A DNA stretch of 64,000 nt from positions 3,513,501 to 3,577,500 of the forward strand of contig NZ_CP016808.1 of NCBI RefSeq assembly GCF_002741035.1, in the 5' to 3' direction. Under the pieces are notes generated by a model. That model had not been told where the DNA came from. It made no database searches and worked only from the letters and a program-made list of their open reading frames with translations. This DNA comes from Paenibacillus sp. BIHB 4019 (lineage in GTDB: Bacteria; Bacillota; Bacilli; Paenibacillales; Paenibacillaceae). Shown here in pieces: positions 3,437 to 39,171 of this stretch (the stretch's first letter is position 1; the number at the start of each line of letters is the position of its first letter). Both the position numbers and the translations under genes were made by a program.

Positions 3437-3483
3437 ATTATACACGCAACTTCTATACAATTTCTATACTTGTTCTATAACTC
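3437..3483 (-). promoter_or_regulatory. Candidate promoter with three 11-bp phased repeats before the GGDEF gene
   Basis: On the minus strand a TATAAT -10 candidate (3442-3437) is preceded by three TATAGAA repeats spaced exactly 11 bp (TTCTATA on the plus strand at 3451, 3462 and 3473). One-turn spacing next to a -10 without a good -35 is what an activator-dependent promoter would show. The third copy overlaps the end of the upstream kinase gene. Confidence 0.45.
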
Positions 3484-6400
3484 ATTTGAATTTCCATCAT
3501 TGGCTGAGGATTTTGGGACTGTAAAGCTTACAAATGTGCCTTGCTTTTCTGTGCTTTCAATGCGTAATCCCTTGCCGTATAACTGTTTTAAGCGACGGTC
3601 AGTATTGCGCAGGCCAATCCCTCCACGGCTTTGCTCAAGCACGTTCCTAACCTTTTCCTCCTCCATACCTACCCCATTATCTATAATCGCGATTTCAATA
3701 TAATCGCCGTATTCTTTCAGGCGAATACGCACGCTGCCTCCGCTTGAACGGGCGAGCACGCCGTGACGCACGGCATTTTCTACAAGCGGCTGAATGGAAA
3801 GCGGCGGAATGCGTAGCCACGGCAGTTCATCAAGCTCCCATTCAATTTGCAGGCGATTGCCGAAGCGTTCTTTCTCTATGAAAAGATAGGAATGAAGCAG
3901 GTCGAGCTCATGCTGAAGCGGAACTACGCGCTCTGAGTTTTTCATATCAAAGCTCGCTCGCAAATATTTCCCGAATTCCTCCAGCAATTGCACCATTCGC
4001 GATTGGTCAATTACACTTAAGGAGGCAATGGAATTTAACGTATTAAATAGAAAATGGGGTTGAATCTGCGCTTGAAGCCAAGCAGCCTCAATACGCAGCC
4101 GCTCATTTACCGTTTGTTTGAGGTCAGTTAGAGCTTGTACACGAGACCTGAGCTCCATTGCATCGACAGGCTTAGTAACATAATCATTTGCCCCTGCCAT
4201 AAAACCTGTGTTGACATCCTCAGGACGGCTGCGAGCAGTTAGCAATAATATAGGAAGCTCAGAAATGCTGAATCGTTTGCGAATCGTTTGGGTCAACTCA
4301 TAGCCCGACATTTGCGGCATCATAACATCGGCGATAATGAGATCCCATTCCTTCGTTTCAAGCAGCTTGAGTGCTTCCTTGCCGCTGGTGACGGTAGCCA
4401 CTTCATAAAACTCTGAATCCAGCAAGTTGAATAATATTTTCAAGTTAACAGGATCATCATCCACGGCGAGCACAGCAGCTTTATTTTGCTGTGTTTCTGA
4501 AGCCGCTTTTCTCTGATCAAGGCGCACTAATTGCGAATCGGCGGCAATGACGGACTTTACAGATAAGGCTGCTTCAACTGCGCTTGGCAGTATAAATTCC
4601 GGTTCGTCAGCAGCTGAGTGGGGGTCAAGGAGCATGGTGAAGGTGAAAGTAGAACCTTTACCAGGGATCGAATATACCGTTAGCTTGCCTCCATGAAGCT
4701 CGACTAACTGCCTGCAAATGCTGAGTCCGAGGCCAAATCCGCCGCTCATAGCCGTCATGCTAGAATCGCCTTGCTCGTAAGCTTGGAAAATAGTGCGCTG
4801 CACGTCCGCCTCTATGCCGACGCCTGAGTCCTGTATGTGGATATAGGCTTTATCGCCAATAGCTTCTGCATGAACACTAACGTGTCCCTCGTTCGTAAAT
4901 TTAACAGCATTATGGATGAGATTAAATAAGATCTGAATCAGCCTGTTTTCATCCGCGATTATTTTAGGAAATGAACGGGAAATATTCATTTCAAGCCGGA
5001 CAGGCTTGTCCTCAGTTAAATAACGCAGCATATCGAATACACCGGAAATAATGTTTTGCAGCCGGACGCTTTCCTTATTCAAATGAATATCTCGATCCTT
5101 CAGACGCGTCACATCGAGCAAATCATTAAGCAGCAGCGACATGCGGCGTCCTACGGTGATGAGCAGCATTAAATTGTTTTTGCTTGCTTCACTAATGGAA
5201 TGGGTAGTGCTAGCCAATACGGTCTGCGCCATATTAATCATGCCATGAAGCGGATTCCTCAGCTCGTGAGAAGTATTAGCGAGAAATTCATCTTTCGCTT
5301 TATCGGCTTTTTGCAGTTTGAAAGCAAGCTGTTCCAAATTGGTTCTTGTTTGCAGAAATTGTTTGAACCAGAAGGAGGCAAAGCAGATAAAAGCAAAAAT
5401 TAAATCAAATGGATAATAAGGCAAATCCGAGCCAAATCTTAACTTGACCGAGCCCCAAAAAATGCTGGAAGCAACGCTCATAGCTGCGAATAGGAGAAAA
5501 ATCATATGCTCTTCGCCCTTAAGTGCCAGGCGCAGAATCATAATAAGAATAAAAAGAGACGGTACGGTAACTGCAGCAGCCATATAAGGTAAAAGAGTAA
5601 TTGCATAATGGAATGGCAATATTGCAATGGCAAGCGTATAAAGGAAGCATAAAAATAAATAGACCCGTACCGCTTTGCCTTTCTGATAAACAGCGAAGAA
5701 GCTTGCAGAAAACGTTAATAGCAACGTGGACGCGCCAATCATAGCAATCATTAGCCCTTTTATAGTCCAATGTAAAGAGATTGGAAGCCACATCGTAAGC
5801 AAGCGGTTGTCATCAAGAAGCGTGCCTGTCATCATGCAGAAAACCACAATGGCAAAATAAAAAAGCTCTTTCTTCCGAACTCCAAGCAAAGGCAGCAGGC
5901 CAACGTAAATAAGATGAAGCAAATAGATGACTGCGACCATAAGCTGCATAGCAATTAAAAAATTATTCTCGTATTGAACGGAGGCAAGCGTCCCAAACTT
6001 AATCGGTTTGGTTATGCCGCCCCCTGCAGGGAAATCATAATTGGACACATGCAGCACAATATTCATTTCATGTGTTCCTGTAATAGATGCGATATGGGGA
6101 TACATCTTTCCCACATGCTCTTGCTTATTTTCTGAAGGTTGACCAAGCTTGGATACAGAACGCCCGTTAACGAATAGCTCATAGCTGCTGGATACAACCA
6201 TCATTTCCATTCCATACTGGTCAACGTTATTGTCAGGCAGCAAAAGCTTGAGACGATAAGTGCCGAAGCCAAAGCCGGTACGATTTGAATTATTGTCCGA
6301 ATAACTGCCCCATGCAGCAGGAACGACAGCCCAGCTTTTGTCAGTAGGGATGGAACTAAATGGCTCAGGTGGGAGAAAAGCATCCGGATAAAACTCCCAC

Positions 6401-6591
6401 TGTCCATTAAGCCGAATCGTTTCCCCATCTATAAAATGCCAGTTGCGCAAATCAAGTACACCTTGTTTGGCAACAGGATGGACAGGGGGCTTATGCGCTG
6501 CATTCCAAGCGAAATGCAGACCAGTTAGAAAACTTGCGAATAGCAAGATATAAATGAAAAGTCTGATTTTTGGATAGTTTTTGAGTATCAT
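3475..6591 (-). CDS. Hybrid sensor kinase: 7TM sensor, HisKA/HATPase, receiver, LytS-type kinase
   Basis: 1038 residues. Order: one N-terminal helix, an extracellular jelly-roll-like domain (about 45-205) of the 7TMR-DISM type, about seven membrane helices (210-405), HisKA with SHELRNP (His near 442), HATPase (about 540-655, GGFGLGLSI), a receiver domain (about 705-825, phospho-Asp near 755 in IIADVMMPQ), and a second kinase module of the LytS type with QPHFLFNTLNS (His near 847) and a second ATPase domain (NAVRHG, GGIGLRNTDRR). Two complete kinase modules and a receiver lie in one chain with no DNA-binding domain, so output must go to another regulator, not identified here. The signal is probably an extracellular sugar or polymer (inference). 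No clear ribosome site precedes the annotated ATG. Confidence 0.88.
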   Translation of the reverse strand: MILKNYPKIRLFIYILLFASFLTGLHFAWNAAHKPPVHPVAKQGVLDLRNWHFIDGETIRLNGQWEFYPDAFLPPEPFSSIPTDKSWAVVPAAWGSYSDNNSNRTGFGFGTYRLKLLLPDNNVDQYGMEMMVVSSSYELFVNGRSVSKLGQPSENKQEHVGKMYPHIASITGTHEMNIVLHVSNYDFPAGGGITKPIKFGTLASVQYENNFLIAMQLMVAVIYLLHLIYVGLLPLLGVRKKELFYFAIVVFCMMTGTLLDDNRLLTMWLPISLHWTIKGLMIAMIGASTLLLTFSASFFAVYQKGKAVRVYLFLCFLYTLAIAILPFHYAITLLPYMAAAVTVPSLFILIMILRLALKGEEHMIFLLFAAMSVASSIFWGSVKLRFGSDLPYYPFDLIFAFICFASFWFKQFLQTRTNLEQLAFKLQKADKAKDEFLANTSHELRNPLHGMINMAQTVLASTTHSISEASKNNLMLLITVGRRMSLLLNDLLDVTRLKDRDIHLNKESVRLQNIISGVFDMLRYLTEDKPVRLEMNISRSFPKIIADENRLIQILFNLIHNAVKFTNEGHVSVHAEAIGDKAYIHIQDSGVGIEADVQRTIFQAYEQGDSSMTAMSGGFGLGLSICRQLVELHGGKLTVYSIPGKGSTFTFTMLLDPHSAADEPEFILPSAVEAALSVKSVIAADSQLVRLDQRKAASETQQNKAAVLAVDDDPVNLKILFNLLDSEFYEVATVTSGKEALKLLETKEWDLIIADVMMPQMSGYELTQTIRKRFSISELPILLLTARSRPEDVNTGFMAGANDYVTKPVDAMELRSRVQALTDLKQTVNERLRIEAAWLQAQIQPHFLFNTLNSIASLSVIDQSRMVQLLEEFGKYLRASFDMKNSERVVPLQHELDLLHSYLFIEKERFGNRLQIEWELDELPWLRIPPLSIQPLVENAVRHGVLARSSGGSVRIRLKEYGDYIEIAIIDNGVGMEEEKVRNVLEQSRGGIGLRNTDRRLKQLYGKGLRIESTEKQGTFVSFTVPKSSANDGNSNEL

Positions 6592-6661: not shown

Positions 6662-7546
6662 TTATGAAGTGATTACTTTTTGCTTATGCTGAAAATGTGC
6701 CGGAATTCGTTCTAGCAGACTGTCTGCATAGATGCTTCCAAGCTCCAGCTTTGGTATATGGATATAGCCGATATAGCATCCGCATTTCTTCATGCCGCAA
6801 GGCCGTTCTGCGGATAAGCCTTCCAGTCCGTCTCGATAGAGTTGACCGATAATACGCCGATCTTTGTAGCAATGTTTGACGACACCGCTTCCTTGAACAT
6901 AAAACACAGAGGAGCCAGCGGAGCAGCGTTGCCCGAAGCTATCGTAATCTCTTGTATTCCATAGAAAATAAGGATCAACGGCTTCAAGCCGTACAATTTC
7001 CGCCTCTGTGTAATAATTGGGCTTATCTTTAAAAGCATTCACCCAAACGTATACATCCTCTGGCAGGCTGCTCCGCAGCGCTTCAATTTGCTCAAAGGCG
7101 CTCCGCAGCCCTACCGTTCCAACGCTAAAATTAAGCCCTTGTTGGTACAATTGCATGCATTGTGACAGCATCTGGCTAAGCGTCGTCTGACCGGGGTGGT
7201 AAGTAACCCAAAAAGCAGCTTTCTCCGGGTTTAGCCGGTTTGTCCAGTCCAGCTTCGTAGAGAGATTTGTCTGAACAGCTACTTTGGAAACATGGGACAT
7301 ATGTGACAGCTCAATCATAGCCTCGCGGTACCAGCGATGGATCAGGGCTTCGCCATAAGGGTTGAAAAAAATAGACAATTCATGGCCGGCGCGACCTTGC
7401 TCCCGAACCCAATCCATGAACGTATGCAATTGCTCCTCATCCTTGCGAAGCGTAGCGGAACTGTCTTTATTTTTGCTAAATGGGCAGTAGGGACAGTCAT
7501 AGTTGCAGGAAGAAAGCGATCCCCGAAAATACAGCACCGCCTTCAT
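6662..7546 (-). CDS. STM4011-family radical SAM protein
   Basis: 294 residues. A CX3CX2C cluster motif (Cys14, Cys18, Cys21) at the extreme N-terminus binds a 4Fe-4S cluster and S-adenosylmethionine. A second group of cysteines near the C-terminus (CGMKKCGCYIG, plus nearby CYKD and QRCSAG) may hold an auxiliary cluster, as in SPASM/twitch enzymes. It is the last gene of the five-gene set and overlaps the preceding gene by ATGA. This family takes its name from the Salmonella STM4011-STM4015 cluster, which has no assigned function. The substrate is unknown; two radical SAM enzymes beside an ATP-grasp and a hydrolase suggest modification of a peptide or small molecule (inference). Confidence 0.85.
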   Translation of the reverse strand: MKAVLYFRGSLSSCNYDCPYCPFSKNKDSSATLRKDEEQLHTFMDWVREQGRAGHELSIFFNPYGEALIHRWYREAMIELSHMSHVSKVAVQTNLSTKLDWTNRLNPEKAAFWVTYHPGQTTLSQMLSQCMQLYQQGLNFSVGTVGLRSAFEQIEALRSSLPEDVYVWVNAFKDKPNYYTEAEIVRLEAVDPYFLWNTRDYDSFGQRCSAGSSVFYVQGSGVVKHCYKDRRIIGQLYRDGLEGLSAERPCGMKKCGCYIGYIHIPKLELGSIYADSLLERIPAHFQHKQKVITS

Positions 7547-8907
7547 GACAGCTCGTACCCTTCCATCAATTCTCTAATTTCACCAGAAATAAATTCATCG
7601 CCGATTGCATCGGAATAAGCCATGCCAAGCTCCGTTAGACGAAGGGTTTGCCCGGCGTCCATTATTTGCGCAAAACCGAGTTGAATCAGTTCAGCCAGTT
7701 CGGAGTGATCGGCTAGTGCTTCGCTGCCAAAACGTTCTGAATAGCTTGCAAGTAACAAGCCTTCGGCATGCAGCAGCGCTTTTAAAACAAACCGCCGCTT
7801 CTGTTCAGCGACATTTAATATAAATCCGTAATTCGCGGATTGGAAATTTTCTGTGGAAACATAATCGGCAATGATGCTTCTTGTAGCCGCTGCGCTTACA
7901 CCATAACGGGATGCATAGTGCACTTCACGCGTATAAGAGCGCGCACCGCAGCCGAGTCCTGCCATACCTTCCTCCTGACAGCTAAACGGTAAAATATTTT
8001 TGTGCGTAAACGTTATTTCTTTAGCGAACCGCCGCATGGAAAATTGCTTATAGCCTGCCGCCTTAAGGCGTTCGCATGCAATATGATAGAGTTCCAGCCG
8101 TGCATCGATGCCTTGGCGCTGAATTTGGTCTGGTTTTAGAATAGTATGCTCTCGCGTATATAACGGGTAAATGAAAATTTCTCCTGGAGAGAAGCTAATT
8201 GCTTTCTCTAGCGAATAAATCCATGAATCGGTCGTTTGGCCCGGCAAACCATAAATCAGATCAATGTTCAGCAATGGAAAATCAAAAGCTTGCAGCATAG
8301 TAATGGCTTGTTCAGCAAGCTTAGGCTTCTGCGGGCGATAAATCGCTGAGGCCTCTTCATCGATAAAGCTTTGCACACCAATGCTGACCCGGTCAGTTCG
8401 GCGGTCTTTTAAAATTTGCAGCCGCTCTTCACTTACTGTATCAGGAGAGGTTTCCACGGAAATAGACGCCTGCGATGTATCCAGCCCCATAATATCTTCG
8501 GCAATTGTGAACAGCCGATTTAGCTGAGTAGCTTCAAGCAGCGTAGGCGTGCCGCCGCCAATGGCGAAGCGGGAAAAAGGCTTTCCTGTAATAATAGGAG
8601 CCCACTGCAAAGCTTGGCGTTCAAGTGCGTCTACATACTGCTCATGCACATGGGTACGGCGATCAGGCAGCGTAAATAAATTGCAGAATCCGCAGCGCAC
8701 GCCACAGAAAGGGATATGCATATATAAAAAATAATAATCAGCCGGTTCGTGCTTCCAGAGCTCATCAAGGGGCAACGCCGGCGTTATTGGCCGATAAGCA
8801 GTCTTATGCGGATAGGAATAAAGATAGGAGCGGTAAGGGGAGGCGAACCAGCGCTTGCCCCATTCCGGCAAATCTGCTGGTCTCGTTAGTGATGTTGGCA
8901 TAGACAT
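7543..8907 (-). CDS. STM4012-family radical SAM protein (HemW-like)
   Basis: 454 residues from the start chosen here. The ATG at 8907 has GGAG at a good distance; an in-frame ATG at 8928 has no ribosome site. The motif FCGVRCGFC gives the CX3CX2C cluster (Cys68, 72, 75). The GGGTPT and ETSPDT segments and the overall layout match the HemN/HemW group of oxygen-independent coproporphyrinogen oxidase-like proteins. Here it lies in the STM4011-4015 cluster, so a heme role is not implied. It overlaps the STM4011 gene by 4 bases, so the two are probably made together. Confidence 0.86.
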   Translation of the reverse strand: MSMPTSLTRPADLPEWGKRWFASPYRSYLYSYPHKTAYRPITPALPLDELWKHEPADYYFLYMHIPFCGVRCGFCNLFTLPDRRTHVHEQYVDALERQALQWAPIITGKPFSRFAIGGGTPTLLEATQLNRLFTIAEDIMGLDTSQASISVETSPDTVSEERLQILKDRRTDRVSIGVQSFIDEEASAIYRPQKPKLAEQAITMLQAFDFPLLNIDLIYGLPGQTTDSWIYSLEKAISFSPGEIFIYPLYTREHTILKPDQIQRQGIDARLELYHIACERLKAAGYKQFSMRRFAKEITFTHKNILPFSCQEEGMAGLGCGARSYTREVHYASRYGVSAAATRSIIADYVSTENFQSANYGFILNVAEQKRRFVLKALLHAEGLLLASYSERFGSEALADHSELAELIQLGFAQIMDAGQTLRLTELGMAYSDAIGDEFISGEIRELMEGYELS

Positions 8908-8927
8908 CCGGCATCTCTCCTCTTTCA

Positions 8928-9713
8928 TTATAAAATAAATTCACGGTACGGGACGTTCCATACAACCTCATGTGCCAGTCGATGGCCGTCATATCCGTCT
9001 TCGCCATAGGCAGTTCCATGATCGGAGAAGGCAAGGCAAAGGGTTTTGCCGCGGCTTCGCAGCGCATCGAACAATATGCCAAGCTGGCTGTCTACGTATC
9101 TCAGTGCTGCACGCTGTGACTCAATGGAGTCTTTTCGTGATCCGCCAGGGAGAAAATAATGATTCGGCCCATGAATAGCTGAGACGTTTAGGAACAGAAA
9201 CAATCTTTTATGGGGATCAGCATTTTCCAGCAGCTTTAGAGCATGATTAACTTGATGTTCAGTAGAACGAGGGTTGGTAACACCAAAAGTCATGCGCCAG
9301 TAGCTTTCTTGAAAATATCCGGGAAGTACTTTTGCAAGCTTGTTTTTCTTAGTGAAAAAAATGACGCCTCCAATACATATCGTTCGGTAACCTGCTTCGG
9401 CAAGGCCGCTTACAAGATCAGGTGCATCAAACTGCCACGTATGGGGATGTGTTTTTAAGCCTGTATTTTTGGTATGGAATAATCGCACATGCGATGCTTT
9501 ATCTGTATTAGCGGGTGTAGGGAGAAAGCCGCCAAAAAAGGCGTGATGTGCAGCATATGTAAAGCTGCCAGGCGTATGCCGCTTCTCCCATGGTCCATCT
9601 GCACATAAGTTGCGGCAGTTGGATTCTTCGAGCTTGGCTACATCATAACGCAGCGTATCGAGCGTAATCATGACAATATCATGGGAGCCCACGATCTGGT
9701 TCATATCAATCAT
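8928..9713 (-). CDS. STM4013-family hydrolase (sulfatase/alkaline phosphatase fold)
   Basis: About 261 residues. The start at 9713 has GAGAGG nine bases upstream; an ATG at 9722 touches the ribosome site and is less likely. The N-terminal ITLDTLRYD segment and the later SDHG plus downstream His (GYDGHRLAHE) are metal-binding hallmarks of the alkaline phosphatase/sulfatase superfamily. The protein is about half the length of full sulfatases. There is no signal peptide, so it should act in the cytoplasm, unlike most sulfatases. It may remove a phosphate, sulfate or phosphonate group from the cluster product (inference). Confidence 0.83.
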   Translation of the reverse strand: MIDMNQIVGSHDIVMITLDTLRYDVAKLEESNCRNLCADGPWEKRHTPGSFTYAAHHAFFGGFLPTPANTDKASHVRLFHTKNTGLKTHPHTWQFDAPDLVSGLAEAGYRTICIGGVIFFTKKNKLAKVLPGYFQESYWRMTFGVTNPRSTEHQVNHALKLLENADPHKRLFLFLNVSAIHGPNHYFLPGGSRKDSIESQRAALRYVDSQLGILFDALRSRGKTLCLAFSDHGTAYGEDGYDGHRLAHEVVWNVPYREFIL

Positions 9714-9742
9714 CCTGAGCATCCTCTCTACGTAAGCTTTTA

Positions 9743-10948
9743 CTACTTTAAATTAGACATTTGCCATTCGTAAGTATTCATTCCCTTATGCTCGGCATGA
9801 TAAAGCAAATCGCCGAAGGGATTAACATCGCATATGTAGACCCGGCCCCGTTTTTTTTGTACAAGGACATCAATTCCCGCGACCGACGAACCAGTGAAAG
9901 CGGCAAGTGCGGATACTGCGGTAGCTTCAACCTGTTCTTTCAATTCAGTTGGCAGCGTGCCATCTGTTATGAAAAGCCGCTCATTGCGCAAATGCAAATT
10001 AGTAATTGGCGTGCGGCTTAGCCTTGCCAATGCATGGCAAGGGGAACCGTTAACGACAAGCTGCCTAATATCGTAGCTGCTGCCATTAATACTGTCTTTT
10101 TCAATCCAACGCTCAATTTGAGCACCTTCACCGCATACCCAATCAATAATTAAGCGGATCGTTGAATGATCGGTGTAACGCCGCAATTTACCAGAATTGT
10201 AGTAAAGCTGTTCGCCGTTATGTTGTTCTACACCAACCGTTGTAATTGCAATTTCTGACCCGGTTGCAGGATGCCGCTGATAAGCGATAATGCCTGAGGC
10301 TGCAGAGCCATAAGCAAGCTTAATGAATAAGCGGTTCATGCGGCTTGATTGAACAGCCGCCAGCAGCGATTCATAATCTTGAATAGAGCCAGCAGGAGCT
10401 GGCAGAGCAGGTGTGGGAACACCATTTTGTGAAAGCAGCTGCTGGCAGCGACGCTTGTCGAACATAACGGCAACATCCGCCGGATCGTTGACCCAGCGGA
10501 TAGGAAATTCACTTTGCTGTGCAGCTTCACGGAGCTCGGCCAGCAAACGGCAGTAGCCACGGTACCATTGCCCTGGAAAAAGAATTCTTCCATATTGTTC
10601 GGGAAGCCGCAATGACTCGGCCGCAGTAACCGATAAGCCGCTGCTTAAATCTTTCCTGCTGCTCTCGAATTCTGCTCCCCAAGCAATTAATTCACGCTCC
10701 ACAAGTGGATTTTCCCCGGGAGCCTCCAGCCGGATAATAATAGGCTTTCCTTCAAGGGGCTGTGAGTTTGCTGCCATCTGCTGAATCAATTCTCCTAAAT
10801 GAATAGAACGTTTCAGCAAATCCGAATAAGGAAGAACGATAGCGGGAGGAAGCCCAAGCTTGTGTCTGGCAGCTTGTAGGCCAAGCGTACGTTTGTTGCC
10901 CGGGTTCCCAATTATCAAATAGGGCTGTATAGAAGCGGAAGCGGCCAT
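9743..10948 (-). CDS. STM4014-family ATP-grasp protein
   Basis: 401 residues. ATP-grasp features: VMFDKRRCQQLL (start of the ATP subdomain, about 155-170), LFIKLAYGSAASGI (nucleotide loop), YDIRQLVVNG, and a C-terminal GIDVLV...CDVNPFGD metal-binding segment. ATP-grasp enzymes join a carboxylate to an amine or thiol through an acyl phosphate, for example in RimK-type tailing or peptide ligation. The start codon overlaps the STM4015 stop (TAATG), indicating translational coupling. Together with the LRR protein and radical SAM enzymes this looks like a biosynthetic or protein-modifying set, but no substrate peptide gene is visible nearby. Confidence 0.83.
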   Translation of the reverse strand: MAASASIQPYLIIGNPGNKRTLGLQAARHKLGLPPAIVLPYSDLLKRSIHLGELIQQMAANSQPLEGKPIIIRLEAPGENPLVERELIAWGAEFESSRKDLSSGLSVTAAESLRLPEQYGRILFPGQWYRGYCRLLAELREAAQQSEFPIRWVNDPADVAVMFDKRRCQQLLSQNGVPTPALPAPAGSIQDYESLLAAVQSSRMNRLFIKLAYGSAASGIIAYQRHPATGSEIAITTVGVEQHNGEQLYYNSGKLRRYTDHSTIRLIIDWVCGEGAQIERWIEKDSINGSSYDIRQLVVNGSPCHALARLSRTPITNLHLRNERLFITDGTLPTELKEQVEATAVSALAAFTGSSVAGIDVLVQKKRGRVYICDVNPFGDLLYHAEHKGMNTYEWQMSNLK

Positions 10949-11790
10949 TATTCCGTAATGAAGGGATAGCGCCAGTCATCCTCATCAGCATCTTGTTCAT
11001 CGCTAAGATCAACAGAAAGACCAGTAGCTTTCCAGCGCTCAATCATTTTTTCGCTCATATAGTGGTAATTAAGATCTAAATGTTTAAGCTTCTTAACCCG
11101 CTCGCTCGTTATGAGAGCTTCTGCGCCTACGTCGGTTAGTGTGCCGTAAGACAAATCAAGCGTATCCAATTGGTCAACAATTGGTGAGTCAGCAATCGCA
11201 ATAGCTATCTCATCCTGAATCTCGCTATTTTTTAAACCCAAATAGGTGAGCTTAGGAAATAGCTCAGGTTTTGCGACTGCCAAAACCTCTTGCAGCGATG
11301 CATCAAACCCATAATTATCTACACCGAGAAAAAGCTCGAGTCTGCGAAGCTCGGGAAGCTGGGAGCCAGCAATTTGTTTAATTACACTTTTCGGCAATCC
11401 GCCGCAAATAATTTTTAGTTCTTGAAGTGCTGCATGCTTCAGGGGCTCAAAGCTTAAATTAGTGCTTCCTTTAACCGTCAGGGAACGAAGATTAGGGTAG
11501 GCCTCAAGCAGTGGAGCGATGTTCGTCTGATTAATCCAGGATACTTCGCATTCCTCCGATTCCATATCTCCAAGAAACACGCTGCTTAATCCTGTGAAAA
11601 TATGTTTGTGCTTAATGAGTGATTCGATGGCATCTTCAGGGCCGTTCTCATAGGCCTGTCCCCAATCGCCGATCGTAAGGACGGAAATGTTAGCTGCGTT
11701 CGGTTTTTCAGTGAGCTGTTCAATAAGCTGGGAAATGCGAACACCATTTTCATATTCATCGTAATCAACGGATAAACGAATCTCAATCAT
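10948..11790 (-). CDS. STM4015-family leucine-rich-repeat protein
   Basis: 280 residues. Leucine-rich repeats run over about residues 60-260 (LRSLTVKGST, LQELKIICGG, LTYLGLKNSE, LDTLDLSYGT, LKHLDLNYHY). No signal peptide or membrane segment is present, so it is cytoplasmic. The C-terminus is acidic (DEQDADEDDW). It is the first gene of the five-gene operon, with GGAGGG seven to eight bases before the ATG. LRR proteins bind partners, so it may be the specificity or scaffold subunit (inference). About 250 bases upstream lies a leftward promoter with a LexA-type box. Confidence 0.82.
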   Translation of the reverse strand: MIEIRLSVDYDEYENGVRISQLIEQLTEKPNAANISVLTIGDWGQAYENGPEDAIESLIKHKHIFTGLSSVFLGDMESEECEVSWINQTNIAPLLEAYPNLRSLTVKGSTNLSFEPLKHAALQELKIICGGLPKSVIKQIAGSQLPELRRLELFLGVDNYGFDASLQEVLAVAKPELFPKLTYLGLKNSEIQDEIAIAIADSPIVDQLDTLDLSYGTLTDVGAEALITSERVKKLKHLDLNYHYMSEKMIERWKATGLSVDLSDEQDADEDDWRYPFITE

Positions 11791-12014: not shown

Positions 12015-12043
12015 TTGACTAAGAACATATGTTCCTGTAATAT
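12015..12043 (+). promoter_or_regulatory. Rightward promoter of the DUF4132 operon, SOS-type
   Basis: TTGACT (12015-12020), a 17-base spacer, then TAATAT (12038-12043). The expected start is near 12050. The spacer contains LexA box 1 and the start region contains box 2, so a bound repressor would block polymerase directly. Confidence 0.65.
12023..12034. promoter_or_regulatory. LexA (DinR) box 1
   Basis: GAACATATGTTC is a perfect 12-base palindrome and fits the Bacillales LexA consensus CGAACRNRYGTTYC at every position but the first C. It lies inside the spacer of the rightward promoter. Confidence 0.75.
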
Positions 12044-12045
12044 GA

Positions 12046-12074
12046 ATTATAGAACCTATGTTCTCTTTTGGCAA
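12046..12074 (-). promoter_or_regulatory. Leftward promoter facing the STM4015-4011 operon, SOS-type
   Basis: On the minus strand: TTGCCA (12074-12069), a 17-base spacer, then TATAAT (12051-12046), a perfect -10. The spacer holds LexA box 2. The expected start is near 12039, about 250 bases before the STM4015 start. No better promoter was found closer to that gene. Confidence 0.55.
12052..12063. promoter_or_regulatory. LexA (DinR) box 2
   Basis: GAACCTATGTTC keeps both half sites (GAAC and GTTC) with the correct 4-base gap. Two positions differ from the extended consensus, so it is probably weaker than box 1. Its centre lies 29 bases from that of box 1, close to three helical turns. Confidence 0.65.
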
Positions 12075-12316
12075 GCCATAAATAGTAAAGGGCAATTAAA
12101 CATACATGATGACGAAATATTAAAAATTTATGCATCGAGTTCTACAGCTGCAATATGTGTAAATAGTCTATGTCACGTATTTTCGAGTGTAATTGGTCCT
12201 AGCTGTTTAGAGATAATTTCATTATTTCCTCCTAATGGCATGAAGGGCGTCCTTTCCTTATTATGGTACTATTATGGTAGTCAGGGGACATTATAAGTAT
12301 CCGGAGGTAGTCAGTC

Positions 12317-12736
12317 ATGATTGTGTACATAACAGTTAAGAGCCTTGGTAAGAAGAAAAGCTATTTAGATCGTCTCGAATGGACATTTGCAAATAAACCG
12401 GATACGTTGAAAGCGCTAATTACGGACCTGATTACTGTAAATGTTCAGAAATTCAATCAGAAGGAGACGGATGTTCCGCTTGTGCCATATTTAACGCAGA
12501 GTGATGTAGAGCTGCAAGCCGAGACGGGAAAAGTCGGTTTTGGCTCTATATATAATGAGCAAAGGGCGAGCTTAGATGAAGCGCTCTGCACCGCATTGCT
12601 GGCGTTTGAAGATGGACTATACAAGGTATTTATTAATGGCGATGAAATCGAACAAATGGATAGTCCTTTACATATACAGGATGGAGACGATCTCGCATTG
12701 ATTCGATTTACAATGTTGGCAGGTAGAATGTGGTAG
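12317..12736 (+). CDS. Unknown 139-residue protein with a possible ThiS/MoaD-like C-terminus
   Basis: The ATG follows GGAGG by ten bases. I do not recognise the family. Residues 1-95 mix strands and helices and contain no Cys. The last 40 residues (VFINGDEIEQ..., then IQDGDDLALI and LAGRMW) resemble the end of small beta-grasp proteins such as ThiS and MoaD, where a VNG segment is followed by DGDxVxI and a short tail. The usual Gly-Gly end is missing, so activation by an E1-like enzyme is not expected. It is 48 bases upstream of the DUF4132 gene and probably in one operon with it, under the SOS-type promoter. The beta-grasp reading is an inference. Confidence 0.7.
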   Translation: MIVYITVKSLGKKKSYLDRLEWTFANKPDTLKALITDLITVNVQKFNQKETDVPLVPYLTQSDVELQAETGKVGFGSIYNEQRASLDEALCTALLAFEDGLYKVFINGDEIEQMDSPLHIQDGDDLALIRFTMLAGRMW

Positions 12737-12784: not shown

Positions 12785-15700
12785 ATGGAGTTGGAAGCGG
12801 GTAAGGAATATTTTAAAGAGATGCTGGATAAAGCGGGCACTTTAAATAAGGATGAATCTTATCGCAAGCTTGCCGTTCTAGTAATTGAATCTGCTAAAAA
12901 TAGATATGTGGATAGCGACATGAAGAAAGAATTGAAGCAGCTGTTGACGCAAATAGCAGCAGAGGGTAATAGCAGCTGGTTTGAGCCGCTCGTTATTATT
13001 ATGGACAAGCTGTTTGATGACTCTTATGCAGCTGTATTCCGTTATATTGTTAACTATTGCGTGGAGTATCCGCACAGCAATGGTTATTTGCGTCGTCCAT
13101 TCCGCACGTCAAATTTAGAAATACATACAGAAAGAGTAGTAGAGAAATGCATCTCCCTCTTTTATATGCAGGCGGCGAAATTCGATGTGAAAGATTATTT
13201 AACAAAAGTGGATCATTCTTCTCTTTCGAATTACAACCGCCTTATGCTTGCCGCAGCAGATATGATTGCCTATGAGATCGACAGAGGCAACGAAGAAACA
13301 TTTGAAGATTTAAGAGAAATTATATATGGGGACAATAACACCGCACTGCTATCCCGTTCTATGATTTCCGGCATATTTTTGAGCCACAGCGAACGGGCTT
13401 ATCATATGATAGGCGAGCTTCTTGTTGCTGCCCGTCTGCAAGAAGGCTTAAGGCAAAGTATTGTCGAGCAAATGGACTCGGGTACGATTGAGGCTATGAT
13501 ATTTATGCTGAAAATTGTGGAGGAGAATAATTTAATCCGTTTTAGTTCAGTTGTACGTGCGCTGGACGTGTGGACAGGCCTGAATTTGGAGGCTGCTAAT
13601 GCGCGTGTATCGAAGCAATGCCTTAGCTACGCCTTCCAGTCCCTTAGTAACAAGGCACTATGTGAGCAGTGGCTGGATAGCAGCAACGTAAATGAAGTAT
13701 TTATGGCTTTGTGGTCGACAGCTGTTTATGAGGAAGATGATTTGAATGACAAGATCGCGTATTTAATGGGAAGCCAAGAAACGTACCGTAAAGTGGTTGC
13801 CCAGTATGTTCTTGCACAGAGCACCAATACAGCGATGCGTTTTGCCATTGCTAGAAATTGGCTTGATGAGACAGATTTTGAACTGCAGTATTGGCTTCTT
13901 GATAATTATGCCTATGGATATAGCTATGAATGGCATATGGATAAAGATAATACGTTGACCTATACAAGCACGCCCTTGCTTGAAGAGAAATCGGAGCGAC
14001 AAAGCCATTTCCGGAAATTTTCTGCGATGCTGTCTGGGATGAATGAAAAAGAAATTACGAAAAACTCCCGTGTATTTGATTGGAGAAGTTATACGCTACG
14101 TGCCGATGATATAGTAAGTAAAATGCTTTATCTTATTGCTTACGATATGGACAATGAAATGATTGCTGAAATGATAGCTCTTAAAGATACATTGAGCCCT
14201 AGCATGCGTGGCGAGCTGCTAAAGTATTTCCTTCCCGATTTGAAAAATAATGCACAGCGAGGCTTTTTGTTTGCAAGCCTTTCAGATAAAAGTACAAGCA
14301 ATCGTGAAATCGCGATTAGTAAAGCTGCCAAGCTTCAACTTAATGAGGAGGAGTTGTCCTCCATATCCGCTCTTCTAAAGCTAAAGAAGGGAGCGCTTCG
14401 CCAAGGTGCCATTGAGCTCCTTCTTAATCAGCCAGCGTCCAGTCTTAAGGCTGTAACAGAGGAACTGCTGCAAAGTAGGGTGGAGCTTCAGCGTCTGGCT
14501 GCGTTGGAATTGCTGACTGAGATGAAGGAAGACGGGCAGCACGCAAAGCTGTTTGCGGAGCTACAGGATCAGGTAGAGGTTCTTACTGAGCCAACGGACA
14601 AGGAACGGCTATTACTAGCAAAGCTGAAGCAAGAAACCACCTATTCTTTAGCAAATGGTTTCGGCTTGTACAACCTTCCGGAGAAAGTGGATCGGCTTTT
14701 GCAAATAGAACCATTGCCGCTGTCAGCCTTGGAAGAAGTTAAGCAATATTTTACGTTGCCGGTGGACAAAATGCAGCGTTTTCTGGAAGGATTATCCGAG
14801 CTTATGCACGAGTATCGGGAGCATGAGTATGAATTTCAAGATTATTATGAGGCTAAACAGTCTGTACTTCTCGGGACAAGGCTGTCTACCACTAGCTGGC
14901 GCTATGATCCCGAAGATCCAACACCCGTATTGGATCGGTATCCCCTAGCTGAAGTATGGCGAAGTTATTTGGATTCGAGCGGTTTTGGCCCGCTTGAGCT
15001 AATGCAGCTGGAGTTTTATTGTCAGGCCAATTTCTTGCATCGCTGCTGTACGGGAGAATTGAATAGCTGGGAAATGTACAGGTCCAACGTTAAGGCGATA
15101 GAGAACTGGGGCAAGGAACTGATTGAAGCCATTTATCCAATGAATAAGGTGGCGGAAATGCAGGCGATTTATAAGCAATTGAATTATGAGAAGCAGGTCA
15201 ATGAAATTATTGGCGCTTATATTTCAGATAGTGATAAGCGGGAGCGTTTTGACAAATCGAATCATGCGCTGCGTTTAATTATTAGCTGCTTTCCATATGA
15301 CAAAGAGGATGAATACCAGGGCATTTTAAATGCCTTGACGAGTTTCTGGCGAAGCTGGCAAAAGTCTGAATTGCATAACGATGAGGCATTCAAAACGTAT
15401 TTTGAAGTATATTACTGGTTATTTGCACTTCAGGACTACGATGGCTATTTGCTTGGAATTGGGGATTTTGCAAGGGCGTACAGCTTGGAAATACTGACTG
15501 AACATGAACTTATTCGATTATTAATGTCTAGACCAAGAAGCGATAATTATATTAGGGAAATGACTAGCCCGAAAAATCATGATTTAGACTCATATCCAGC
15601 AATTAAAGCTATTAATAATCGGATTATCGAGCGGGTTTTGGAAATTGAACTTAACCGCGGTGATCTTCCGACAGATGTCACCAAGCTTGCAACAAGCATT

Positions 15701-17722
15701 TCACATATTCAGGGGACTTCTTATTTCCTTCGTATTTTGACAGGACTGGATAAAGAATCATTCGTTCGGGGCTACATTTATAGCTATGGCAAAGATACGA
15801 CGAAGAAAGAATCGTTCAGCCAAATGCTTAAAGTATGCCACCCTGCTGCGGGGGAAAACGAAGAGACGTTGAAAGAACTGCTTAAAGGTAGCAAAATAAG
15901 CGAGGTCAGACTGCTTGAAGCCGCGATGTATGCACCGCAATGGGTTGATATTATAGCAAAATATTTGGGCTGGGATGGTCTGCGAAGTGCAGCCTGGTAT
16001 TTTCACGCTCATATTAATGAGACGTTTTCAGGAGAGAAAGAAACGATTGTAGCACATTATTCTCCGATTTTGCCGGAGGACTTCAACGATGGCGCATTTG
16101 ATGTGAACTGGTTCCATTCGGCCTATAAAGAGCTGGGAGAGACGCGGTTTGACCAACTCTATCAGTCTGCAAAATACATTTCGGCTGGTTCCAATCACAG
16201 ACGCTCTCAATTATTTGCCGATGCGGTGCTAGGCAAGCTTAAGCTTGCAGATTTGAAAAAATCAGTAGCAGATAAGCGCAATAAAGATCATTTGCTGTGC
16301 TATAGCCTAGTTCCATTGGAGCAGGACAAGCAGCGTGATGTACTGGAGCGTTATGAATTTATTCAGCAATTTCTTAAAGAAAGCAAAACATTTGGAGCCC
16401 AGCGCCGAGCTACAGAGTCAAAAACAAGCTCTATTGCATTGGATAATTTAGCCCGAAATGCAGGGTACACAGATGTTGTTCGTTTAACCTGGGATATGGA
16501 AGGGCGGAAAATCGACGAGCTTCTGCATTACTTTGATCCTGTCGCTTTGGATGAGGATGTGACGGTACAGCTTATTATTGATGAAGAAGGAAAAGCAGAA
16601 ATCCGTTTGCTCCGCAAAGACAAGGAGCTTAAATCGGTTCCGGCCGCTTTTAAAAAGCATGAATACATGGAGACGTTAAAACAAATTAAATCGGAGCTTT
16701 CCGATCAATACAAGCGGGCGCGCAAGGAGCTTGAACGCTCCATGGAAACAGGAAGTCTCTTCACTAAGGAAGAGATTAACAAGCTCGCGAAAAATCCGGT
16801 TATTGCGCCTTTAATTAGGACATTAGTATTTGGTGCCAATGGAAAGCTCGGTTATTTTGAAAATGGGGCGCTGCTGGGAGCAGATGAGGGGTCATATGAA
16901 GTTGGCGAAGGCGAGGAGCTGTTTATTGCCCATCCTCTGCATTTGCTAAATAGCGGACTGTGGAGTTTGTACCAGAAGGATATGTTTGATAGGCAGTTGA
17001 AGCAGCCGTTCAAACAAGTATTCCGGGAGTTGTATATACCGAATGCTGATGAACTGGCTAGTGGTGCGATATCCCGCAGATATGACGGACACCAGGTACA
17101 GCCTCGTAAAACCGTTAGCTTGCTGAAAAGTCGTTTATGGACGGTAAGCTATGAGGAAGGGCTGCAGAAGGTTTATTACAAGGAAAATATCATTGCGAGC
17201 ATTTATGCGCTTGCTGATTGGTTCTCGCCATCGGATGTCGAATGCCCGACGATCGAGACCGTCCGTTTCTTTGACCGCCATACTTATAAACCGATTGATA
17301 TTGAAAATGTGCCGCCGCTTGTCTTCTCTGAAGTGATGCGTGATGTGGATTTAGTCGTCAGTGTGGCGCATGTAGGCGGAGTAGATCCTGAGGCGAGTCT
17401 GACAACGATTGAAATTCGCCAAGCTATCGTTCGTGAATCGTTGCGCTTGCTCAAAATTGACAATGTAAGATTGGAAGGCAATCATGCTTTAATTGCAGGA
17501 CAATTAGGCGAATACAGCGTTCATTTGGGCAGCGGTATCGTATATAAACAGGCTTCTGGTGCAGTTGCCATTATTCCGGTTCATTCCCAGCATCGCGGCA
17601 AGCTGTTTCTGCCGTTTATAGATGAAGATCCAAAGACAGCAGAGATTTTATCCAAAATTGTTCTGCTTGCACAAGATACAAAAATTAAAGATCCGCAAAT
17701 TCTTGAGCAGATTAAAAGGTAA
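12785..17722 (+). CDS. Giant DUF4132-domain protein
   Basis: 1645 residues; the ATG follows AGGAGG. Residues 1 to about 1100 are helix-rich and look like HEAT/armadillo-type repeats (for example residues 500-600). DUF4132 lies at about 1270-1460 (IAPLIRTLVFGANG, IAHPLHLL, QPFKQVFRELY). The C-terminal part, about 1480-1640 (FSEVMRDVDLVVSV, YSVHLGSG, LPFIDEDP), matches the domain that commonly follows DUF4132. The family includes E. coli YehI/MolR, which is near MoxR/VWA genes; those partners and a WGR domain are absent here. Function is unknown. The upstream LexA boxes suggest a role after DNA damage (inference). Confidence 0.83.
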   Translation: MELEAGKEYFKEMLDKAGTLNKDESYRKLAVLVIESAKNRYVDSDMKKELKQLLTQIAAEGNSSWFEPLVIIMDKLFDDSYAAVFRYIVNYCVEYPHSNGYLRRPFRTSNLEIHTERVVEKCISLFYMQAAKFDVKDYLTKVDHSSLSNYNRLMLAAADMIAYEIDRGNEETFEDLREIIYGDNNTALLSRSMISGIFLSHSERAYHMIGELLVAARLQEGLRQSIVEQMDSGTIEAMIFMLKIVEENNLIRFSSVVRALDVWTGLNLEAANARVSKQCLSYAFQSLSNKALCEQWLDSSNVNEVFMALWSTAVYEEDDLNDKIAYLMGSQETYRKVVAQYVLAQSTNTAMRFAIARNWLDETDFELQYWLLDNYAYGYSYEWHMDKDNTLTYTSTPLLEEKSERQSHFRKFSAMLSGMNEKEITKNSRVFDWRSYTLRADDIVSKMLYLIAYDMDNEMIAEMIALKDTLSPSMRGELLKYFLPDLKNNAQRGFLFASLSDKSTSNREIAISKAAKLQLNEEELSSISALLKLKKGALRQGAIELLLNQPASSLKAVTEELLQSRVELQRLAALELLTEMKEDGQHAKLFAELQDQVEVLTEPTDKERLLLAKLKQETTYSLANGFGLYNLPEKVDRLLQIEPLPLSALEEVKQYFTLPVDKMQRFLEGLSELMHEYREHEYEFQDYYEAKQSVLLGTRLSTTSWRYDPEDPTPVLDRYPLAEVWRSYLDSSGFGPLELMQLEFYCQANFLHRCCTGELNSWEMYRSNVKAIENWGKELIEAIYPMNKVAEMQAIYKQLNYEKQVNEIIGAYISDSDKRERFDKSNHALRLIISCFPYDKEDEYQGILNALTSFWRSWQKSELHNDEAFKTYFEVYYWLFALQDYDGYLLGIGDFARAYSLEILTEHELIRLLMSRPRSDNYIREMTSPKNHDLDSYPAIKAINNRIIERVLEIELNRGDLPTDVTKLATSISHIQGTSYFLRILTGLDKESFVRGYIYSYGKDTTKKESFSQMLKVCHPAAGENEETLKELLKGSKISEVRLLEAAMYAPQWVDIIAKYLGWDGLRSAAWYFHAHINETFSGEKETIVAHYSPILPEDFNDGAFDVNWFHSAYKELGETRFDQLYQSAKYISAGSNHRRSQLFADAVLGKLKLADLKKSVADKRNKDHLLCYSLVPLEQDKQRDVLERYEFIQQFLKESKTFGAQRRATESKTSSIALDNLARNAGYTDVVRLTWDMEGRKIDELLHYFDPVALDEDVTVQLIIDEEGKAEIRLLRKDKELKSVPAAFKKHEYMETLKQIKSELSDQYKRARKELERSMETGSLFTKEEINKLAKNPVIAPLIRTLVFGANGKLGYFENGALLGADEGSYEVGEGEELFIAHPLHLLNSGLWSLYQKDMFDRQLKQPFKQVFRELYIPNADELASGAISRRYDGHQVQPRKTVSLLKSRLWTVSYEEGLQKVYYKENIIASIYALADWFSPSDVECPTIETVRFFDRHTYKPIDIENVPPLVFSEVMRDVDLVVSVAHVGGVDPEASLTTIEIRQAIVRESLRLLKIDNVRLEGNHALIAGQLGEYSVHLGSGIVYKQASGAVAIIPVHSQHRGKLFLPFIDEDPKTAEILSKIVLLAQDTKIKDPQILEQIKR

Positions 17723-38703: not shown

Positions 38704-39171
38704 TCATATTGAGTCCCAATATTGCAGTCCAGGCCTGTCTTTTGCGAAACCCTTCATAATATGGCTCCATAGCTCTTTTGCCTGCGGGTCGAATTGGCCG
38801 AACACCGTATCGAACTGGGCTTGTTGTGCTGCCATTAATTCGTCGAACAATTGCTGACCATTCTCGGTTAAAAACAATCGTTTGCTTCGTTTGTCCTTCT
38901 CATCGGGCATATCAACAACGTAATTCCGCTGTTTCAGCTCACGCAATGGATGATGAAGAGCTTGCTTCGATACTTCAAGCGCGTGGAACAGTTCATTTAC
39001 ATTTAAGCCGGGCATGCTGCCTATAAAAAACAGAATACGATGATGTCCACGATTAATCTGATACGCTTCAACGATTTCTTCCGGAATCTCGATAATACTT
39101 CTGTAGGCAAAGTAAAACAACGCGATTTGCTTGCTCAAATCCGTTCCATAATTGTTAACTGTCAAATTCAT
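38704..39171 (-). CDS. MarR-family transcriptional regulator
   Basis: 155 residues. A winged helix-turn-helix (about 50-120: PGLNVNELFHALEVSKQALHHPLRELKQRNYV, then a DEKDKRSKRLFLT wing) is typical of MarR. It is upstream of the siderophore importer on the same strand, with no terminator between, so it may be part of that operon and control it along with Fur. A perfect 13-base inverted repeat lies upstream of its start. Confidence 0.85.
   Translation of the reverse strand: MNLTVNNYGTDLSKQIALFYFAYRSIIEIPEEIVEAYQINRGHHRILFFIGSMPGLNVNELFHALEVSKQALHHPLRELKQRNYVVDMPDEKDKRSKRLFLTENGQQLFDELMAAQQAQFDTVFGQFDPQAKELWSHIMKGFAKDRPGLQYWDSI

Follow-up and report, generated by a model that had tools for sequence, protein, structure and literature searches.

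Two overlapping promoters with a putative shared LexA operator between the STM4011-4015 operon and an ORF139-DUF4132 gene pair in Paenibacillus

We identified a 60-bp region, at positions 12015 to 12074 of the window (the whole 64-kb stretch of DNA analyzed here), that would act as a two-box LexA operator for two overlapping, outward-firing sigma-A promoters. Comparison of sequences makes it very probable that this shared operator puts both flanking operons under SOS control. As long as the DNA is undamaged, a LexA dimer on either box would lie over one promoter's spacer and over the start of its counterpart; judging from the geometry, either box would hamper both promoters, and the two boxes together would shut them. 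Upon DNA damage, RecA filaments trigger the self-cleavage of LexA. The boxes would then be empty and the two operons would be made together, STM4015-4014-4013-4012-4011 as the leftward transcript and ORF139-DUF4132 as the rightward one, presuming joint transcription of each set. LexA binding, repression, and induction at these boxes are steps that we infer. The features of the region are listed in Table 1.

Table 1. Genes, promoters, and candidate LexA boxes at the divergent locus
Feature	Position	Strand	Evidence or remark
STM4011 family radical SAM protein	6662..7546	-	NF038073, E 2e-116
STM4012 family radical SAM protein, HemN-like	7543..8928	-	NF006067, E 5.1e-173
STM4013/SEN3800 family hydrolase, sulfatase-like	8928..9722	-	NF038075, E 1.4e-119; PF00884
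STM4014 family protein, ATP-grasp-like	9743..10948	-	NF038074, E 1.5e-123; PF02655, 24.2 bits vs cut-off of 23.2 bits
STM4015 family leucine-rich repeat protein, first gene of the operon	10948..11790	-	NF038076, E 1.2e-105; Pfam LRR_6
Inner promoter-like match	11820-11793	-	Ends 3 bases ahead of the STM4015 start codon
Inner promoter-like match	11855-11826	-	9/12; position could serve STM4015
Rightward promoter, TTGACT (12015-12020) and TAATAT (12038-12043)	12015..12043	+	9/12 consensus bases; promoter scan and script check
Spacer of rightward promoter, AAGAACATATGTTCCTG, 17 bp		+	Read directly from the sequence
LexA box 1 (candidate), AGAACATATGTTCC	12022..12035		In the rightward spacer, just past the inferred leftward start
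Leftward promoter, TTGCCA (12074-12069) and TATAAT (12051-12046)	12046..12074	-	11/12 consensus bases; promoter scan and script check
Spacer of leftward promoter, AAAGAGAACATAGGTTC, 17 bp		-	Read directly from the sequence
LexA box 2 (candidate), AGAACCTATGTTCT	12051..12064		In the leftward spacer, at the inferred rightward start
Inner promoter-like match	12235-12264	+	9/12; position could serve ORF139
ORF139, 139-aa homologue of D. radiodurans DRA0165, tail ...LAGRMW	12317..12736	+	381 proteins at E<=0.001
DUF5724/DUF4132/DUF7737 protein, 1645 aa, DRA0166 homologue	12785..17722	+	Pfam E 0, 1.5e-44, and 2e-36

A preliminary description of this region had placed one LexA box in each of the 17-bp spacers of two divergent promoters, and direct reading of the sequence together with a script check found these box positions to be exact. 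Both boxes are perfect GAAC-N4-GTTC sites, and their centers are 29 bp apart. The word "divergent" holds for the genes, but the promoters themselves overlap, with only 2 bp between their -10 elements and with transcription starts, as placed from the -10 positions, at ∼12050 (+) and ∼12039 (-). Thus, two polymerases could hardly occupy these promoters together. Moreover, because each box falls within one promoter's spacer and in the start region of the other, each should, by its geometry, serve both promoters.

The genome has one LexA family match (TIGR00498, 253 bits). Five boxes of the GAAC type, with up to one mismatch, lie between lexA and its divergent neighbor, which we take to be yneA-like, and boxes are also found upstream of recA (CGAATGTATGTTCG) and uvrB (GGAACACATATTCT). 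Each of eight relatives carries five or six GAAC-type boxes at lexA. The consensus given for B. subtilis DinR/LexA in a portion of PMC4551915 is CGAAC-N4-GTTCG. We built a LexA matrix from 26 distinct boxes, taken from the lexA, recA, and uvrB regions of the host genome and the lexA regions of the eight relatives, with the two boxes of the window kept out. By this scoring, which the preliminary description had proposed as a check, box 1 (17.5 bits) and box 2 (16.1 bits) rank first and second in the window. The third-best site (38871-38884, 14.3 bits) lies within a frame that looks MarR-like by eye (38704-39171) and is likely not an operator.

The known SOS (LexA) regulon of Bacillota resembles this region in having the GAAC-N4-GTTC core on promoter elements, and the genome's own lexA, recA, and uvrB regions are boxed in the same manner. 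For membership in the regulon we looked to a match to the genome's own motif, overlap of the boxes with predicted promoter elements, and a LexA encoded in the genome, and all three were found. The region differs from that regulon in that two boxes are common to two overlapping outward promoters and in that its targets are not classical repair genes.

It is important to note that the number of boxes is by itself weak evidence. Box 1 and box 2 are the sole two occurrences of GAACNNNNGTTC in the window, where 0.52 would be expected, and at least two occurred in 10 of 100 shuffles; by count, then, they could be chance palindromes in AT-rich intergenic DNA. Across the whole genome, the GAAC-N4-GTTC pattern occurs 63 times, more rarely than the reversed pattern (207 times). 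We listed 50 of these 63 sites and fetched 47, which do not include the two in the window or the one at lexA, and under a longest-frame rule for predicted frames, 30 of the 47 were coding, 16 intergenic, and 1 at a frame edge; the 30 coding sites also speak for chance. Placement and pairing speak against it: the boxes sit in both spacers, 29 bp apart, with the top matrix scores of the window, while 200 random windows of similar dinucleotide make-up had a mean of 0.135 sites at 16.1 bits or above and no pair within 60 bp. With the half-site conservation described below, these features make chance a most improbable explanation.

Six of the genome's other GAAC-N4-GTTC sites, intergenic or near a start (L182, L189, L193, L196, L213, and L222), are possible further LexA targets. 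The products of the genes beside them resemble, by eye, a substrate-binding protein, a MarR-like regulator, a beta-lactamase-like protein, a TetR-like regulator, a small HTH protein, and an unnamed ORF.

The divergent layout was compared in four species represented by five records, two of which (L004 and L086) are identical here. None of the 16 half-site bases differs among the four species, nor does the 29-bp spacing, and changes inside the 14-base boxes are confined to the four middle positions or the final base. The rightward -10 element reads TATTAT in L004. In three other relatives (L005, L006, and L052), ORF139-DUF4132 stands in tandem behind STM4011. No box was found upstream of ORF139 in these tandem relatives or in same-genus records L088 to L092, among which L089 seems to be a near-duplicate of L006 and L092 one of L005. 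Upstream of STM4015, the tandem relatives have poor sites at best (P values of 0.025, 0.075, and 0.08). The preliminary description had named as refuting a loss of the boxes in relatives that keep both operons. Measured by this, the tandem relatives, which lack good boxes, amount to a partial failure, although the boxes persist in all four species found with the divergent layout.

We scanned the 300 bp upstream of STM4015 in the best 80 of 85 records, comparing the best site in each record with 200 shuffles and using stretches 700 to 1,000 bp upstream as controls. On the basis of title and similarity, 59 records were assigned to Paenibacillaceae, including one that bears the title Bacillus sp.; L071 was left out because of its short upstream region. 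At P values of ≤0.005, meaning that no shuffle matched the site, 22 of the 59 records had a site, versus none of the 59 control stretches; the counts were 24 versus 0 at 0.01, 25 versus 2 at 0.025, and 28 versus 10 at 0.1, and 35 of the 59 records had no site at P ≤ 0.01. Six of the 24 positive records belong to the elgii group (L010, L014, L019, L022, L031, and L074). The other 18 comprise 11 records whose box lies at -156/-157, three from Saccharibacillus, one from P. ginsengarvi, one from P. oceani (L047) that has a lone imperfect site, L004, and the window. In the 11 records with the box at -156/-157, none of the 8 half-site columns vary, versus 51 of 60 flank columns, a test (P = 4e-6) that is biased, as the records were chosen for having the box. 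No STM4015 box with at most one mismatch was found in a Salmonella plasmid copy or a Paenibacillus plasmid copy.

In the six elgii-group records, the boxes lie within the promoter of a divergent gene of ∼109 aa (the frame is listed for L010 and L022), 150 to 520 bp upstream of STM4015, and may not be concerned with STM4015. That promoter, TTGACT...TATAAT, has a LexA box in its spacer and a second box 29 bp off, resembling the window.

The same approach was applied upstream of ORF139 in 110 records, with duplicates of the window (L084) and of L004 (L086) dropped and the near-duplicate pairs L005/L092 and L006/L089 retained. Within 300 bp, 17 of the 110 records had a site at P ≤ 0.005, versus 1 of 110 controls, and the difference persisted at 0.025 (32 versus 8) and at 0.1 (42 versus 19). 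Perfect boxes were present upstream of ORF139 in 16 of 101 records, versus 0 to 3 for eight control patterns, and boxes with one mismatch in 35, versus 7 to 22; in this count two loci were counted twice and near-duplicates were also counted. In all of these counts, related genomes do not represent independent events. In other lineages, then, boxes are found upstream of either gene set in records whose examined flank does not contain its counterpart.

Taken over relatives that keep the genes, a box is found in the divergent-layout species and several lineages and is not found in the tandem relatives and most family records. Predicted LexA control of the gene sets is therefore patchy across relatives and, since most family records have no recognizable box at either set and the tandem relatives have no good one, SOS control was probably gained or lost several times.

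In a genus coded g7 (for instance, L120 and L133), a different, conserved palindrome, GGTACATATGTACG or GGCACATATGTACG, lies ∼135 bp upstream of the ORF139 homologue, often at the place held by LexA boxes in other genera. By the LexA matrix, where it scores 5.0 bits, it is not a LexA box, and lexA in four sampled g7 members with the palindrome has normal boxes.

The boxes of the window might instead be used by another repressor, for example a LexA-like or phage-type one, that recognizes GAAC-N4-GTTC. Half-sites of this kind are in principle not exclusive to LexA, some relatives (G090, G007, and G139) have a second, partial LexA match, and g7 has its own palindrome GGTACATATGTACG ahead of ORF139. 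We nevertheless regard this as quite improbable, given the single LexA family match in the genome and the same type of box at its own lexA, recA, and uvrB regions.

A further alternative is that LexA meaningfully controls only one of the two operons and that the other has a LexA-independent promoter in its long leader, with the boxes merely adding to basal expression. The leaders, ∼250 and 267 nt ahead of the two first genes as judged from the predicted starts, leave room for additional uncontrolled promoters, and parts of them are conserved across the four species. The promoter scan gave 6 promoter-like matches in the region, where shuffles averaged 2.6, and these include inner matches on both sides (Table 1). 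Yet the inner matches do not surpass the rightward promoter and fall short of the leftward one, and the match at 11820-11793 could not yield a full STM4015 message because it lies 3 bases from the start codon. Control of a single operon is also at odds with other lineages, in which boxes occur upstream of either gene set by itself, and we consider it unlikely. The preliminary claim that LexA controls both gene sets is instead supported, at the level of sequence, by the one LexA and its own boxes, the conserved half-sites, and the recurrence elsewhere.

The left-hand genes correspond to the STM4011-STM4015 cluster of NCBIfam, with all five families above the curated cut-offs, in order and on one strand. 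A good LexA-type site upstream is a difference from the cluster outside Paenibacillaceae, where none of the 21 STM4015 records scored had a site at P ≤ 0.025. According to the preliminary description, neither gene set was known to be part of the SOS response. For STM4011-4015, this agrees with the literature that we searched, in which we found no published LexA/SOS work on Paenibacillus, and as a predicted SOS target the operon appears to be new. The statement does not hold in the same way for the right-hand pair, which is homologous to DRA0165-DRA0166 of D. radiodurans, described in parts of the literature as DdrO regulated and mitomycin induced.

ORF139 has no name in Pfam or NCBIfam. The large gene follows it directly in all 35 loci that were scored by way of the large protein's N-terminal part, shorter loci being left unscored. 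By tblastn, both proteins are encoded side by side in four Deinococcus records, and the D. radiodurans matches have 34% identity for the large protein (E 5e-161) and 28% for the small one (E 7e-9). The order of the pair is the same, and DUF5724, DUF4132, and DUF7737 are all present in the D. radiodurans large protein. A DdrO motif lies ∼80 bp upstream of the small gene there (L273:5995-6399); because this is where the motif published for DRA0165 sits, we took the pair to be DRA0165-DRA0166. The same 17-base DdrO core precedes the two genes in D. psychrotolerans and in Deinococcus sp. D7000, and a weaker one does so in D. ficus.

Sections of PMC8533742 report a DdrO motif at DRA0165-DRA0166, strong upregulation of the pair upon DdrO depletion, and a DRA0166 protein that is raised by mitomycin C in the wild type and not in an irrE mutant. 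According to part of PMC9650054, the DRA0165 product is raised by oxidation and by gamma rays and has a negative effect on oxidative-stress resistance. The same text states that DRA0165 is confined to Deinococcus and lacks the radiation-response motif; our tblastn homologues outside Deinococcus and the DdrO motif ∼80 bp upstream contradict this statement. Compared with our locus, the Deinococcus pair differs in its repressor, which is DdrO (TTATG...CATAA motif) there and predicted to be LexA here, and in the end of the small protein, which is Gly-Gly there and AGRMW here. The right-hand pair is a known damage-regulated module in Deinococcus that here would be under a different repressor.

In E. 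coli, yehI carries DUF4132 (E 2e-47), and we take yehF/yehH to be molR. The molR locus (yehF-yehH-yehI) differs from ours in having a WGR protein in front and in that yehI shows DUF4132 alone; a search of the E. coli control genome gave no DUF5724. The sequence CTGGATAAAATTACAG begins 25 bp before yehF, but that 16 kb of E. coli contains 11 matches to CTGT-N8-ACAG with one mismatch, and the yehF box by itself proves nothing. Passages of PMC11039860 and PMC4576408 list molR among known LexA-regulated genes. A DUF4132 gene near a locus so listed is a second qualification to the statement that the right-hand set is not known in the SOS response.

ORF139 is probably a ubiquitin/MoaD-like beta-grasp protein. 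Its structure model (pLDDT, 76.2) aligns in PDB comparisons to MoaD-type proteins, Urm1, SAMP1, and ubiquitin, with the alignments reaching the C-terminus of these proteins, and the predicted fold and strand order are shared with MoaD, Urm1, and ubiquitin. A difference is that the ORF139 model has three helices between the strands. At the sequence level, no match of the family to beta-grasp proteins was found; 3 of 55 members hit ThiS, with a best E value of 0.11. The window protein ends in LAGRMW, none of the 55 aligned homologues ends in Gly-Gly, and 53 of the 55 end in Trp, at least 2 residues past Gly. The four Deinococcus homologues end in AGG. No E1-like enzyme was found among the named neighboring genes of ORF139, the set covered for this purpose.

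ORF139 probably acts together with the giant DUF4132 protein. A more elaborate reading, which we put forward tentatively and hold to be doubtful, is that ORF139-DUF4132 is a damage-induced ubiquitin-like system, in which the small protein, working with the giant one, would modify targets covalently or carry sulfur, its Gly-Gly being ready-made in Deinococcus and requiring removal of the tail in Bacillota. LexA and DdrO would have recruited this system separately, and here it would be joined under one operator with STM4011-4015, the two being partner pathways of one damage response. Under the shared-operator reading itself, two uncharacterized, widespread gene sets would gain a concrete condition of expression, DNA damage, and so their function would become testable; the predicted fold of ORF139 hints at which chemistry to seek. 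The presence of LexA boxes in part of Paenibacillaceae and of DdrO in Deinococcus suggests that selection has linked the pair to DNA damage repeatedly.

Two further observations concern the far end of the left-hand operon. A hybrid histidine kinase/response regulator gene (3475-6591) lies on the same strand 70 bp beyond STM4011, and its place is kept in L004. In three Deinococcus records (L279:10951-12679, L280:11004-12325, and L281:10915-12212), a DUF6745 gene and a small hypothetical gene converge on STM4011. Ahead of the small hypothetical gene, L279 has a DdrO-like motif at 12286 with 1 mismatch of 14, and at that place L280 and L281 have only DdrO-motif matches with three mismatches.
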